A stretch of 64,000 nucleotides of DNA from Dipodascopsis uninucleata var. uninucleata (lineage: Eukaryota; Ascomycota; Lipomycetes; Lipomycetales; Lipomycetaceae), in assembly GCA_030568195.1 (NCBI GenBank), contig JAJLTO010000002.1:434001-498000 (forward strand), in the 5' to 3' direction. The notes beneath the pieces were generated by a model. That model ran no database searches, had not been told where the DNA came from, and was given only the letters and a program-made list of their open reading frames with translations. The position numbers and the translations under genes were made by a program. Below, in pieces: positions 16,376-59,716 of this stretch. Within the stretch, counting starts at the first letter, position 1. Every line of letters begins with the position of its first letter.

Positions 16376-17211
16376 CTACCGACCTGAGGGTTTCTGAGTG
16401 TGTTGAGATGGCTGCTGTTGTTGCTGCGATGATAAATGCTTTTGCATCTGTGGTGGGATCACACCAGGTGGAGGAATAGGAAGCATACCTGGTGGCGGTG
16501 GAACAGGAAATGAGGAGCCAGGTACGCCAGATACAGGGAGTGGTGGTATTGGAAGAGGTGCGCCTGGTGGCAATCCTGCTAACGCTCCAGGTGGCGGTAT
16601 AGGAAACATACCTGGTGGCGGTATAGGAAGACTACCAGGAGGAGGCACAGGAATTCCAGGCAATGTAGGTGGCGGTGGAATATTAGCAGGAAATGTATAA
16701 GGGAGCTGCTTCACAGGTACATTAGGTTTTTCTTCAGAATACTGACTCGTGATAGAATCGATAATAGCCTGTGCTTGCTCCTGACTTATCTCTATATATG
16801 GAATAACAAAGGCGAAGTTAGTAGAGCATTTGATGTAGACAGAAGATAATCATAATCATGAGATTACTGGTGAATGTTCCAGCGTAGAAGTGAACATAAG
16901 CAGACCAATACATACGCTGATAGTAATCTACCACGTTCTTGATGTGATTTTTTCCACTGTTGTGTGCTTTTCGAACACTGATCGAATCGTGTGTTAAGAA
17001 CACTGAATAATTGTGTTTGTCAGTAATCAGCAAACGCAACAGTATCGTCAACTCAACTGAAAAATATATGTAACGATAAGCTATACGCACCATCACAATA
17101 ATCACAGAAATAGTAAACCTATAATGTCAGTAGACAAAATCAAACAAAGATTTCCGTAAACAAGAATTAACGGCGAACAAACTTAACACCCCGGGTACTT
17201 ATCTTAGGCAT
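16376..17211 (-). CDS. YHC1: U1 small nuclear ribonucleoprotein C (U1-C)
   Basis: Four exons (17211-17203, 17112-17091, 17002-16916, 16791-16376) give 177 aa. U1-C binds the U1-70K/Sm core and stabilises pairing of U1 snRNA with 5' splice sites. The N-terminus reads MPKYFCDYCDVFLTHDS then [12 protein letters not shown], a full matrin-type C2H2 zinc finger (Cys6, Cys9, His24, His30), followed by VVDYYQQISQEQAQ, the conserved helix. The C-terminal 100 residues are a run of PIPPPG-like repeats ending in a Gln-rich tail, as in other U1-C proteins. Intron 1 lies after codon 3 and must start AT and end AC to give the invariant MPK-Y-(F/Y)-C junction. A GT-AG alternative (donor GTTAAG at 17187, acceptor AG at 17119) is possible but inserts seven extra residues into this invariant start. 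Introns 2 and 3 are GT-AG; intron 3 has TACTAAC. Confidence 0.93.
17113..17202 (-). other. AT-AC intron in the U1-C gene
   Basis: 90-base intron 1. Donor AAG/ATAAGTACC, branch-like TACTGAC, acceptor GGTTTAC/TATTTC. Removing it gives MPKYFCDYCD. The donor and branch look U2-type (GTAAGT with G changed to A; TACTAAC-like), not U12-type (ATATCCTT; TTCCTTAAC). Confidence 0.75.
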
Positions 17212-17593
17212 CTTGCGCACTTTCCAAGAATACTTTATGGCTTATTCTTTATAAAGTTCTCCAATAGCTATCCGTCTATTTTTGATTAAATATAAATGAA
17301 CGTCGATTGTAGGGAAGTTGACGATCAGACTGTTACCTTTCACCTGCTTAATACCAGGAACCGTAATTTATCAAAAAAATATTCTAGTGAAAGTTACTTA
17401 CCAAAAACCCTAGCAGAACTCCCAGAAATAAGCAAACAGTAAAGCGAAAGGTCAGATGTGGATAGAATTTTATCATATTTGTGTAGTCTGACAGATCTTT
17501 TTATAAGTTTCAGTAATATTAAATCGATTTAGTGTTCTCTCTTTCATTCTTATCTCTCAATAGTTTCCTGTTGGACAGCAGTATATCGTCGTG
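17212..17593. promoter_or_regulatory. Divergent promoter region, U1-C / E2 gene
   Basis: 382 bases shared by two genes that start away from each other. A T-rich/A-rich core and ATAAA-like words are seen on both sides. No specific operator is recognised. Confidence 0.5.
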
Positions 17594-25722: not shown

Positions 25723-27165
25723 TTACAACAAATCGTATTTAACGAACTCCTCATACAAGGTCTTTCCTAGACGAGCAGGACTCTTCTCAACCGCAACACC
25801 AGCAGCAGTAAGAGAAGCAATCTTGGAGTCGGCACCACCCTTTCCACCGGAAATGATAGCACCAGCGTGACCCATACGACGTCCAGGTGGGGCGGAGACA
25901 CCAGCGATGAAAGAGCAAACTGGCTTAGGAACGGCGCGAGAAAGATTGTATTCCTTAAGAAACTCGGCAGCATCCTCCTCGGCAGATCCACCAATTTCAC
26001 CAATCATAATGATACCATCAGTCTCCTCATCGTCAAGGAAAACCTTAAGAGCATCAATGAAATTAGTACCACTGAATGGATCACCGCCAATACCGATAAC
26101 AAGACTCTGACCAAGACCGACGTTGGTGGTCTGGTTGACAGCCTCATAGGTGAGAGTACCAGAACGAGAAACAATACCAATTCTTCCACGCTTATGGATG
26201 TACGAAGGCATGATACCAATCTTGCATTGTTCAGGAGCGATAATACCAGGGCAGTTAGGACCAACTAAGCGAGTCTTGCTCTGGCTGTTAAGCATATCGA
26301 CAACGCGAACCATGTCATGCTGAGGAATACCCTCAGTGATACAGACTGCAAGAGGAATCTCAGCCTTGATAGCCTCCTCAATTGAAGCAGCTGCAAGTGG
26401 AGGAGGAACGAAGATGGCTGTAGCGGTAGCACCAGTCTCCTTTACAGCTTCTTCGACAGTGCCGAAAATCGGTAGTCCCAAGTGAGTCTGGCCAGCCTTC
26501 TTCGGGTTGGTTCCACCGACAACCTATTGATAAAGAAAACAATTTGTTAGGACCAATAAGCAGTACTAAACAATTCTACAAAGCGAAAAGTATATACTTT
26601 TGTTCCATATTCAATAGCCTGCGTAGCATGAAAAGTACCCTGCCTTCCAGTGAAACGTGCAAAGAAAGTTAGTATCATAGCTGTTCGCGATCCATCGACT
26701 GAAAAATAAGACTATAGGAAATACTTATCTTGGAAGATAACTTTGGTATCACCGTTAATTCTAAGGTTTTTCACGGTATCCGCATAATCCCTGCGAGCTG
26801 AGGAAGAGCTGAATCCACGTCGACCAGCAACAGACCTGTAAAAGAAAAAAACATAATAATTAATATAATCATAGGATGAAACTATATACTCATAGTTAAA
26901 TAGAATCACGAGTACTATGCAGAAAGAAAAAGCATAAAAGAGCGATTGAACAACAAAAAGAAGGAAGGCAGACGAATAACCGTTATTCCATACGCATCCG
27001 CATCACTACAATGATCAATTACCCACTAGGCATAATCCACAATCAATCCACATGCACACGATACACAGCAGAAATAAGATGAAATAAAAAGATTACTTGT
27101 GATTAATAACAAAAACCCACTTACTTGACTCCCTGTCTCGCAAAGATAGTTCTAACAGATGACAT
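25723..27165 (-). CDS. LSC1: Succinyl-CoA ligase alpha subunit, mitochondrial
   Basis: Four exons (27165-27125, 26835-26729, 26656-26598, 26523-25723) give 335 aa. The enzyme converts succinyl-CoA, ADP/GDP and phosphate to succinate and ATP/GTP in the TCA cycle. The N-terminus ([20 protein letters not shown] then GFSSSSARR) is an Arg/Ser-rich, acid-poor mitochondrial presequence. Then come [20 protein letters not shown] (CoA-binding loop), [17 protein letters not shown], and [18 protein letters not shown] with the phosphorylated His (near 25867). The chain ends [11 protein letters not shown] without truncation. Intron 1 is 289 bases and intron 3 is 74, both GT-AG. Intron 2 (26728-26657) must be removed as AT-AC to encode the invariant QGFTG; a GT-AG alternative exists that would replace GFTGR with DK (see findings). 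Confidence 0.93.
26657..26728 (-). other. AT-AC intron in the succinyl-CoA ligase alpha gene
   Basis: 72-base intron 2. Donor AAG/ATAAGTATT, perfect branch site TACTAAC, then TTTCTTTGCAC as a pyrimidine-rich end with terminal AC. Removing it joins CAAG to GTTTC and yields [11 protein letters not shown]. Confidence 0.8.
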
Positions 27166-48728: not shown

Positions 48729-49970
48729 CTACCGATTACGACGTCTTCGACGAGGGTTCTGGTGAGGTGAAGAAGGCAATTCTGGGGATGATGATAAATC
48801 CCTCTTAGGTGGAGGAAGTTCGTGACTTTTACTGTAATACAGATCCTGATCAAAAGTCGTCAAGTTGTTGTTATGGATATGACTCCTGTTGTAAGGGTCT
48901 TGAGTCACGATAATTCCAGACTGTATTGATACTATAGATGTGGGTGTTGAAATCCTAGTGCTCTCATAGCTTCCGGCTAACCTGCTGCTTTCTGTATCGA
49001 CATATGTTGAAGTCAGAGTATTTGCATTTAGTTTAACATCAAGTCCATCAAGTCCATCACTATTACTACCGCCGATACTGCTCATTTTATTGTCATTATC
49101 TCGTATAATACTATTTAATGTTTTATTATAATTATGACTATCATTCTCATGACCCTCAGCATGAATAGCATTACTATTTATGCTGTTATAGTCGTTGATA
49201 TGATCAGAGTTGTCATTGTTGTTAAAAAGCTTTTTAGTCTTGTAAACATTGTCGCTGTGTCCTTGATCTTTGTAATCTGTCTCTTTTGAAATACCCGTTG
49301 GACTCGCCCTTAATACTGGTGCACGGTTACCAGGATGACGGGACGCTCGCTGCAGACCGCCTCTGATCCATAATCCATGCTGCTTGAGCGCCAGTGATAT
49401 GGACGTCATTGGTAGCATGGAAGGAAACTCCTTTGCGGAATAAACGCGGAAGACATCTGATAACTGATAGCCCATGGTGCCCATAGACCGAACATGAGAT
49501 AAGGACATTTGAGGATCAATCCATGCCCACTGGAATTTCAGACGATACAGACCAGCTGTGGAAAATGACAGGTCAGGAAAACAAAAGTAACAGTTTTCGC
49601 CACGTAGACCATCAATATCCAAGTCTACATATTGTGCGTTACCTACCAAATTTCCTCGAATAAGCGTTCGTCCCCTTGTATTTGTTGCTGGAACATTTCC
49701 ATTGCCATTAATATCGACTGGATCTGCCGAGTAAATAAAGCATTGCACAATCCATGAAAATCGCTTGGTATAAACTAGATCAAGCTCCCCTGTAGCTTTG
49801 TTCCGAATTTCAAGCTTGAGCACCGGTGGAGGATCTAAACATCGTCTATCCCTGTCTGCGTTACCGCAAGACCGTGCTCTGTCCGGCTGCTGAATTATGG
49901 ATAAGTCAGCCGTGTAATGACCAAAGTCAGGCGGTCCGTCAGGTGGATTTTGAATTCTGTTTCCCGGCAT
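48729..49970 (-). CDS. Velvet-domain transcriptional regulator
   Basis: Single exon, 413 aa from the ATG at 49970; the frame is open for 14 more codons upstream but offers only a GTG. The velvet domain starts almost at once: YTADLSIIQQPDRARSCG, DPPPVLKLEI, then the second part FCFPDLSFSTAGLYRLKFQW and QLSDVFRVYSAKEFPSM. The long Asn- and Asp-bearing insertion between the two halves (DPVDINGNGNVPATNTRGRT) is common. Velvet proteins (VeA, VelB, VosA, VelC) are nuclear DNA-binding dimers that link light and development to sporulation and metabolism. With the domain at the N-terminus and a disordered Ser/Asn tail ending in a basic PRRRRRNR, it is most like VosA/VelC, but the subtype is an inference. 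Confidence 0.9.
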   Translation of the reverse strand: MPGNRIQNPPDGPPDFGHYTADLSIIQQPDRARSCGNADRDRRCLDPPPVLKLEIRNKATGELDLVYTKRFSWIVQCFIYSADPVDINGNGNVPATNTRGRTLIRGNLVGNAQYVDLDIDGLRGENCYFCFPDLSFSTAGLYRLKFQWAWIDPQMSLSHVRSMGTMGYQLSDVFRVYSAKEFPSMLPMTSISLALKQHGLWIRGGLQRASRHPGNRAPVLRASPTGISKETDYKDQGHSDNVYKTKKLFNNNDNSDHINDYNSINSNAIHAEGHENDSHNYNKTLNSIIRDNDNKMSSIGGSNSDGLDGLDVKLNANTLTSTYVDTESSRLAGSYESTRISTPTSIVSIQSGIIVTQDPYNRSHIHNNNLTTFDQDLYYSKSHELPPPKRDLSSSPELPSSPHQNPRRRRRNR

Positions 49971-51821
49971 CGGGCCTTCTTCAGTACTATCTTGGCAGTC
50001 GGTATCTATCACAGTTACTCAATTCTTGCGACTTCAAGCTTGTTATAGACTATTTACTCCTCACGTCGGCTACTCGATGACTTTTTGCTGATTTACGTTT
50101 ATGTCTGTACTAGTGCGCTACACCAGCTGTAAACTTGCGTCTATTGCTAATATGTAATCAATCTTTCAAAAGATATTATTTTAGCAAATCGTGATTCCTG
50201 TTGTGAAACCTTCAAGCTCTAGCTAGTAATATATAATTTAGAGTAGTGCGATATCAATATTATTGACAACCTATTCACTCTGTTGCTTCGTAGAACTGCG
50301 CCTTGTCTGCGTTGAAGGTCTTGAAGTTTTCACTCCCCTTTCAACGGCTAATCTCAACGTCCCACTGCGCAGGAATACGTTTACCAGGATGTCTCTGCAG
50401 TTTGCCTTTGGTAATCACCGTCTTTTAACGCTAGCTTCACTTATTATGACTTCTAGTTCACTGACCGCGACGAACCTGGATGCTAAAAAAGTTGTACCGC
50501 TAAAACTGGCAATTGCATATACCGGCACAAATACGTGCAAAACGTCAAAAACCAGTACTAGCAATGGTTCTGATAGTGATATCAATACTGAGGCCTGCGT
50601 ATCCTTTGCGGCCAATACGGGTCCTGAGTGCGTTAGTCCACTCCCTGCACTTCACTTCGTACCGTCTGGAGCTTGTCCTTGCGTCCTCTTATTGGAGTAA
50701 CTCTGCTTTCTATGCCTGCAGTATGTCTACCAGTTCGTACACTACCCGTTCGTCCAGTGTGGGTCAGTAGGTTTACCTCTGGATATCTAGTCCCTTTCCC
50801 CCTGTGTATAGGATCGACACTTAGTGCACATTAGCTAGACTCGCCTTTTATTTTATGGAAAGGCTCCGCACTTTCTTGTTCTACAGGCTACCGTTTAACG
50901 GCAAACCAGGCCCTGCCTCAGAGTTTAGAATCTGAGGAGTTTCGCAGAAGTGGAAATTTTCTCGGTGAATTTCCTATTATGGCAATATTTATCTTCTCAG
51001 AGTACTATATTCCTTGATTAGTAACATGAGCCTTATGATTAGCAAGCTGCTTGTTCTACTATGACTAAGTGTTTATGGTTAGGGCTTTGGCACTGTACTA
51101 TCATTATCATGATTATCAGGATGGATTAGAATAAAACGCATGACTATTCACGGCTGGCCCACTTGTTTGCGCTCAATTTTTGGAGTCGATGACTGCAGAT
51201 AGCACTGAAGTGCCTTATTGGGCTTATGGAGGGCCATATATGTAGCCGAGTAACCCGCTGGTCACATTTCATAGTTTCAATTGCATACGCGAGCTGAAAA
51301 TTACGCAGGTGGTGCTTTGGGGGGTGGGGGGCCTTCTATTACTGTCCCGATTATGCTGTGTAATAATGCTTAGAGCCCGGAAGATTCACGGAAAAATAAG
51401 GGACCCTGGTACGCTCCGTAATTGCATACTTTCGCATGTTTTCAACACTACGTAATATATGCTGCTATACACATGCATTTCTACCCTTTCCGCCCTTGTC
51501 TTGAAGGTACTCAATAAAAACCTAACCATGAATATAGTGTTAGAATATAATCACCCTGCTTTAACAATGTTGCGCAGGAGAGTATTAGTCATTGCACGTT
51601 AGATATTACTCTTGCATTACATAATATATTATTAGTCATACCTTTGATTCTTTTAACAGTACAAGAACCTTATTCTAGCCGGTGGTTCAGAAAGCAAAAA
51701 GTTAATGAAAACAAAAAAAAAATCTACACAAGAGTAGAAGAGCTACAAGAAATATAAAACATAAATAATTAGATATTATCAGGTTGATAATAGCACAAAT
51801 TAGTTAATTCATAGCTGCTGC
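49971..51821. other. Long divergent spacer, velvet / arginyl-tRNA synthetase
   Basis: 1851 bases. Long promoters are usual for developmental regulators such as velvet genes, so much of this may be regulatory. It contains the possible small ORF listed next, a G-rich stretch GGGGGGTGGGGGG at about 51318-51330, and an A-rich tract (51708-51722) about 100 bases before the synthetase start. No RNA gene recognised. Confidence 0.4.
50389..50700 (+). CDS. Possible small Cys-containing secreted protein
   Basis: 103 codons from the ATG at 50389 to TAA; the frame stays open 42 codons further upstream. Residues about 10-28 (HRLLTLASLIMTSSSLTA) could be a signal peptide, and six Cys lie in the rest, including NTCKTSK, TEACVSF, GPECVSP and GACPCVLLLE. 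This is only a reading of composition: no family is recognised and there is no independent proof of transcription. A TCTCTGCAG right after the ATG could also be a 3' splice site. It may be chance. Confidence 0.2.
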   Translation: MSLQFAFGNHRLLTLASLIMTSSSLTATNLDAKKVVPLKLAIAYTGTNTCKTSKTSTSNGSDSDINTEACVSFAANTGPECVSPLPALHFVPSGACPCVLLLE

Positions 51822-58584: not shown

Positions 58585-59716
58585 ATGTCTACGGAAGAAG
58601 TATATCAGATAGACGAAACCCCAGAAACGCCGGTTGAGACGCACAAGAGATCGGCACCGAAAGATGAAGAAGGTGAAGAAGTTGTAAATGTACTTGAACT
58701 TAGCGAAACACGGTTGGAATCACAGGATGGTGATGTAGGCGAGGGCCAAGCAGAGACTGACGAAAATACGCAAAGAAATATTAATTCTGATGTTGAAGGA
58801 CCAGAAAACGACGAAAAAAAGAGCCTTGTGAAAAAAGATAAGAAGAAGAAGAAGAAACGTCCCGCACGACCGCAGATCGACGCTGACAAACTTAAGGAAA
58901 AACAAGCTGCTCCTCAAACTGGTACTGTTTATAATATTTGGTACAATAAATGGAGTGGTGGTGATCGGGAAGATAAATATGCCAGTCAGACACACGCAGA
59001 AGGCAGATGCAATATTGCTCGTGATTCTGGATATACCAAAGCAGATAAGGTACCGGGCAGCTTCTTTTGCCTATACTTTGCTCGAGGAATATGTCCAAAT
59101 GGGTAAGTCATATCTATCTTGAAAAGTTATAGAAGACATTATTTCTAATTTTTTTAAGAAAAACCTGTAACTATTTGCATAGACTACCGGAAGTGACCGA
59201 CATATTCAATCCAAATGTTGACTGCTTTGGCCGTGACAAGCGAGCAGACTACAGAGATGATATGGGAGGTATTGGTAGTTTCATGAGACAAAATCGAACA
59301 ATTTATGTTGGTAGAATAAATGTCACTGATGATATTGAAGAAGTGGTCGCGAGGCATTTTGCTGAGTGGGGAGATATCGAAAGAGGTAAGTGAACTTATT
59401 AAATATTCCTCGAAAGTATATTAACATATTTTATTCAGTTCGAGTACTTAATTCACGAGGTGTAGCATTTATTACATACATGAACGAAGCCAATGCTCAG
59501 TTCGCGAAAGAAGCAATGGCTCATCAATCTTTGGATCATAATGAAATTCTAAATGTTCGATGGGCTACTGTCGATCCAAACCCATTGGCAAAGGCACGGG
59601 AACAACGACGGTTGGAGGAGCAAGCTGCTGAGGCAGTTAAAAAATTACTTCCACCAGATTATCTCAAAGAATTGGAATCGCGTGCTCTACAACCTGCAAA
59701 GAGAAGGAAAATGTGA
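58585..59716 (+). CDS. CWC2: Pre-mRNA splicing factor Cwc2
   Basis: Three exons (58585-59102, 59159-59385, 59439-59716) give 340 aa. Cwc2 (RBM22-like in role) sits in the Prp19/NineTeen complex and contacts U6 snRNA and the intron in the spliceosome's catalytic core. After an acidic and then lysine-rich leader of about 100 residues comes the Torus/zinc-finger core: TVYNIWYNKWSGGDRED, then FFCLYFARGICPNGKTCNYL (a CCCH finger completed by the first splice), DCFGRDKRADYRDDMGGIG and the RRM NRTIYVGRINVTDDIEE with GVAFITYMNEANAQFAKEAM. It closes with PNPLAKAREQRR. All junctions are GT-AG and keep frame. The promoter region of 258 bases is shared with Trm732. Confidence 0.95.

Follow-up and report, generated by a model that had tools for sequence, protein, structure and literature searches.

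The locus of U1-C, a protein of the U1 snRNP with a part in the recognition of intron starts, raises the question whether the gene is itself interrupted by an intron with the ends AT and AC and, if so, whether such a donor ties the splicing of the gene to the level of its own product. The window analysed here is a stretch of 64,000 nucleotides from the fungus Dipodascopsis uninucleata var. uninucleata (contig JAJLTO010000002.1). From the ATG at 17211, its minus strand reads ATGCCTAAG and then ATAAGT, as had been claimed in the original prediction, and the first intron ends with GTTTAC; the order of elements is ATG CCT AAG/ATAAGT...TACTGAC...TTTAC/TAT TTC TGT (Table 1). Removal of this AT-AC intron and of two GT-AG introns gives a protein of 177 amino acids, with the end of the gene at 16376. 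The U1 zinc finger is complete in this protein (PF06220 positions 1-38 of 38, 79.3 bits), and PDB chains of U1-C from human and yeast align with it from residue 1 and free of gaps for at least 42 residues over the zinc finger; the proline-rich tail gives a gapped alignment to the human chain. Excision of ATAAGT...TTTAC does restore the canonical start of U1-C, as had been proposed. We conclude that intron 1 (17202-17113) is very probably a genuine AT-AC intron of the major spliceosome and one of at least two in the window; it is most likely constitutive and would reflect a tolerance of the lineage for A at position +1, not a device specific to U1-C.

Table 1 Predicted features of the U1-C and succinyl-CoA ligase alpha genes (positions in the window).
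Feature	Position	Strand	Remarks
U1-C coding exon 1	17203..17211	-	ATG CCT AAG (MPK)
U1-C intron 1, predicted U2-type AT-AC (ATAAGT...TTTAC)	17113..17202	-	90 nt, phase 0
U1-C intron 1 branch-site motif TACTGAC	17126..17132	-	branch A 17127, 14 nt upstream of AC end
In-frame AG in U1-C intron 1	17119..17120	-	8 nt past branch A; AT-AG end would add Val-Tyr
U1-C exon 2	17091..17112	-	22-nt microexon, YFCDYCD, TATTTCTGTGATTATTGTGATG
U1-C intron 2	17003..17090	-	GT-AG, GTGCGT...TTCAG
U1-C exon 3	16916..17002	-	
U1-C intron 3	16792..16915	-	GT-AG, GTATGT...TATAG
U1-C exon 4	16376..16791	-	proline-rich C-terminus and stop
Succinyl-CoA ligase alpha gene (SUCLG1/LSC1)	25723..27165	-	4 exons, 335 aa; introns 1 and 3 GT-AG
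Second predicted U2-type AT-AC intron, intron 2 of succinyl-CoA ligase alpha	26657..26728	-	AAG/ATAAGT...TACTAAC...GCAC, 72 nt, phase 1

Is this junction forced? If GT, GC or AT donors are combined with AG or the observed AC end, an ATG can be connected in frame to YFCDYC by 52 junctions; the top 25 of these and the pair starting with GTTAAG were listed. The zf-U1 domain of Pfam scores 79.3 bits for the AT-AC reading, 70.4 bits for an AT-AG reading and 68.0 bits for the GT-AG reading from GTTAAG. The junction was chosen by homology, and these scores are therefore not independent of it, whereas the splice motifs do not depend on that choice. Apart from the A at +1, the AT donor at 17202 matches the consensus of the GT donors in the window; its score of 8.1 (positions -3 to -1 and +3 to +6) equals the top of the range covered by the 23 curated GT donors, 0.6 to 8.1, with a matrix that was built from these same donors and ignores the first two bases of the intron. 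A rough estimate of the probability that chance brings together TAAGT at +2 to +6, an AC end and, 10-28 nt upstream of that end, TACTRAC is 1.5e-7 for the U1-C intron, but this is a product of factors that were assumed to be independent and picked after the intron had been seen. Chance is an unlikely explanation because the motif sits exactly on the border set by homology, not because of the number of motifs.

An ordinary GT-AG intron could end with the 17119 AG and start either from GTTAAG at 17187 or from GTAAGT at 17401 in an upstream exon, which would alter the N-terminus of the protein. Both donors are in frame, and GTAAGT at 17401 is strong, with a score of 5.6. However, GTTAAG scores only -8.7, far outside the range of the curated donors, and the form starting from 17401 would exchange MPK for MIKFYPHLTFRFTVCLFLGVLLGFLVY, unlike the U1-C chains from the PDB that were compared. 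We regard a GT-AG intron at this position as very improbable. The GTAAGT at 17401 on the minus strand, upstream of the U1-C start, possibly belongs to a 5' UTR intron or to an alternative first exon (ORF MIKFYPHLTF...). Further upstream, a gene for a CDC34-like ubiquitin-conjugating enzyme is oriented divergently from U1-C; 382 bases lie between the predicted start codons (17212-17593), and the two genes perhaps have a common promoter.

The 3' end of the intron requires closer consideration. At 17119, six bases upstream of the AC, stands an in-frame AG that had been overlooked when the intron was first described. With the AT donor kept, this AG would give an AT-AG intron and the start MPKVYYFC, with two extra residues, either as the sole form or as a minor isoform. 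The AG follows the branch A at 8 nt and the AC at 14 nt, and a gene finder that was permitted to use AT-AG in place of AT-AC introns did choose this AG. Spacing was compared with that in the 29 curated GT-AG introns of the window. In the 15 with a strong branch motif, the distance from branch to AG is 13-38 nt, and four AGs at 3-5 nt are passed over; in all 29, the distances from the best motif are 8 to 38 nt. The case at 8 nt is intron 1 of the GFO/IDH gene, which also has an alternative motif at 19 nt. By sequence, the donor of this intron is at 1342; the statistics were calculated with 1345, and the number of full-match donors is the same with either. Because of this one intron, the spacing favours the AC in U1-C without proving it. 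Against the AG at 17119 stand the loss of zf-U1 score given above and the fact that exactly five residues precede the first zinc cysteine in human and yeast U1-C (PDB). Taken together, the AT-AG reading is disfavoured and we consider it unlikely, all the more since the second AT-AC intron of the window ends in AC and has no AG downstream of the branch site.

This second intron was found in the gene for the alpha subunit of succinyl-CoA ligase, 9.5 kb away from the first. A scan of the window for ATAWGT with a branch motif and AC gave 19 placements, and AAG/ATAAGT was present at two donors, those of U1-C and succinyl-CoA ligase alpha. Excision of 26728-26657 extends the reading of DTKVIFQ, and the alignment to human SUCLG1 is free of gaps at the junction. 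Between DTKVI and GTFHAT, there is one in-frame GT/GC-AG alternative; it disrupts the QGFTG loop and lowers the score of the CoA_binding domain from 100.8 bits with AT-AC to 85.8 bits. If donors anywhere in exon 2 are allowed, the number of in-frame GT/GC-AG pairs rises to 21, and the other 20 each lose part of a ten-residue stretch of the protein. Not a single AG is present from the branch site to the AC, so that this intron is free of the ambiguity seen in U1-C. By eye, no similarity between the two AT-AC introns was seen that would indicate a common origin as a mobile intron. That normal GT-AG introns were misread through errors of assembly or sequencing is hardly credible, since this would demand four coordinated errors, at the two terminal bases of each intron.

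Which spliceosome would remove these introns? The minor spliceosome recognises most AT-AC introns according to PMC7072748, and a U12-type intron was considered. The U12 consensus is printed as ATATCC for the donor and CCTTAAC for the branch site in PMC3033335. Both are poorly matched: the donor ATAAGT agrees with ATATCC in 3/6 positions in both introns, and the branch motifs agree with CCTTAAC in 3/7 and 4/7 positions but with TACTAAC in 6/7 and 7/7. Both donors have G at +5, which is U2-like, and the branch motifs are TACTGAC in U1-C, 14 nt from the AC, and TACTAAC in succinyl-CoA ligase alpha, 12 nt from it. A U12-type intron is extremely improbable, and the intron type claimed in the original prediction is upheld by motifs and homology. 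Furthermore, both AT-AC donors match AG/_TAAGT in 7/7 positions (-2, -1 and +2 to +6), compared to 2/29 of the curated GT-AG donors (Fisher p = 0.013). The full match at the remaining positions looks as if it compensated for the mismatch of U1 at A+1.

Usually, the first and the last base of an intron form a G-G pair in the second step of splicing; in AT-AC introns, an A-C pair takes its place. For the introns described here, U1 snRNA would pair with AG/_UAAGU completely save for the mismatch at A+1, and UACURAC would be paired by U2. In step two, the first position, A, would be paired with the last, C, a non-Watson-Crick combination that is permitted at the intron ends instead of G-G.

U2-type AT-AC introns (AT-AC type II) are exemplified by intron 21 of human SCN4A, which has the same ends and is a substrate of the major spliceosome; in the sodium channel genes, every intron of this type has G at +5 (PMC2831892). 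In contrast to SCN4A, the introns described here are fungal, two of them occur within 9.5 kb, in the genes for U1-C and succinyl-CoA ligase, and their splicing is predicted. In yeast, AT-AC ends rank second to GT-AG in efficiency, and the protointron of SUT635 and an alternative junction in RPL30 demonstrate the use of AT-AC ends by the major spliceosome of a fungus (PMC6726248). The former is non-coding and the latter an alternative junction, whereas the AT-AC junctions predicted here are needed for two conserved proteins. In Caenorhabditis elegans, at least 42 AT-AC introns were judged to be real in a species seemingly devoid of minor snRNAs, so they are probably spliced by the U2-type machinery (PMC3033335). 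They make up a small fraction of the introns of that genome, compared to 2/31 in a single window here.

The original prediction went further and proposed that a non-GT donor in the U1-C gene forms a feedback loop. This is compatible with the AT-AC reading: the donor with A+1 would tie splicing of the U1-C transcript to the level of U1-C, and retention of the intron would lead to an early stop and decay. Indeed, retention of intron 1 places an in-frame TAA at codon 15. For several mismatched donors, +1C among them, relative binding is improved by human U1-C, and +1A is absent from the table of oligonucleotides shown in PMC4383343; according to the same paper, U1-C makes no base-specific contacts. 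Loops that serve U1 homeostasis exist. The human one is negative and acts via U1-70K and NMD (PMC3798272), and the cross-regulation of U1-70K and U1C is similar in that the supply of a U1 snRNP protein is under splicing-based control; there, an alternative 3' splice site in U1-70K is used together with NMD, whereas the candidate element here is a donor in U1-C. However, the loop proposed would be positive and not homeostatic, since U1-C would promote its own splicing, and apart from A+1 the donor of intron 1 equals the best of the window. More important, the same AAG/ATAAGT...AC intron is present 9.5 kb away in succinyl-CoA ligase alpha, a metabolic gene. This argues for a tolerance for A+1 in the genome and against a feedback specific to U1-C. 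The feedback part of the prediction gained no direct support, and we consider such a device quite improbable. Relatives of U1-C were not found in viral_contigs or genome_contigs, which are collections of viral and prokaryotic sequences.

How common are AT-AC introns in this genome? The curated set contains 31 introns, 29 GT-AG and 2 AT-AC, which corresponds to a 95% interval of 0.8-21% for AT-AC. The GT-AG introns of CDC34-like, AP-2 mu, myosin, succinyl-CoA ligase and U1-C lie in genes whose spliced products have domain or PDB matches; the others were placed by our own reading of conserved protein motifs, partly by eye, and predicted introns lacking homology support were excluded. The names eIF2 beta, NAP1, AOS1, Cwc2, CDC34 and AP-2 mu are what we take these genes to be. 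Of the annotated fungal introns, 0.019% are AT-AC (Table 1 of PMC7072748), and the fraction was small in all species of a survey of 61 species (PMC3033335). The probability of at least two AT-AC introns among 31 is 1.7e-5 at 0.019% and 5e-4 at about 0.1%, but AT-AC introns were deliberately sought, the sample of 31 is small and AT-AC introns are probably under-called in annotation. We take the enrichment as no more than suggestive.

Motif counts did not help in this respect. A gene finder based on coding potential and permitted to use AT-AC called exactly two introns with these ends, those in U1-C and succinyl-CoA ligase. Nine decoy pairs of ends gave 0-5 calls per pair, several of them at these same AAG/ATAAGT donors. 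In view of the decoys, the count of two AT-AC calls is no evidence, but its agreement with the borders fixed by homology is. AAGATAAGT occurs three times in the window, compared to 0.94 expected, and 8/100 shuffles reach three; significance from motif counts alone was dropped on these grounds. The third copy (22436, minus strand) is located between the gene models for PPP5 and AP-2 mu and was taken as chance.

It is tempting to speculate that the major spliceosome has been retuned in this fungus and that AT-AC is a standard class comprising several percent of the introns (2/31), with a full AG/AUAAGU donor and a strong UACURAC branch site, the U1-C gene included. This may be so, yet we put it forward as a tentative possibility to which we incline less than to its opposite; that transcripts are spliced at the AT-AC junctions and that the frequency is raised genome-wide are both inferred from sequence. 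If the rate did hold for the genome, the fungus would provide a natural system with a major spliceosome that takes introns beginning with A at the percent level, as opposed to the 0.019% quoted from PMC7072748. It would offer a way to ask which parts (U1, U6, U1-C, Prp8) allow A+1 and to study the origin and the persistence of AT-AC introns outside the minor spliceosome. Among the matches listed from the open-licence literature, neither an AT-AC intron in a U1-C gene nor a fungus with U2-type AT-AC introns at the percent level was described. A practical consequence is that a gene finder restricted to GT-AG introns misplaces the starts of genes such as these two; our own GT-AG-only run placed the starts of both U1-C and succinyl-CoA ligase wrongly.

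It should be mentioned that many predicted genes of the window have few introns or none. Scans of the window with Rfam (gathering threshold) and for tRNAs gave no matches. The 22-nt microexon of U1-C is flanked by the AT-AC intron on one side and by the donor GTGCGT on the other. In the Cwc2-like splicing-factor gene (59103-59158, plus strand), the reading that fits the protein ends the intron at AAG, 10 nt past the best branch motif, and bypasses a CATAG downstream. Velvet proteins are fungal, and the gene for a Velvet factor at 48732-50018 on the minus strand points to a fungal source.
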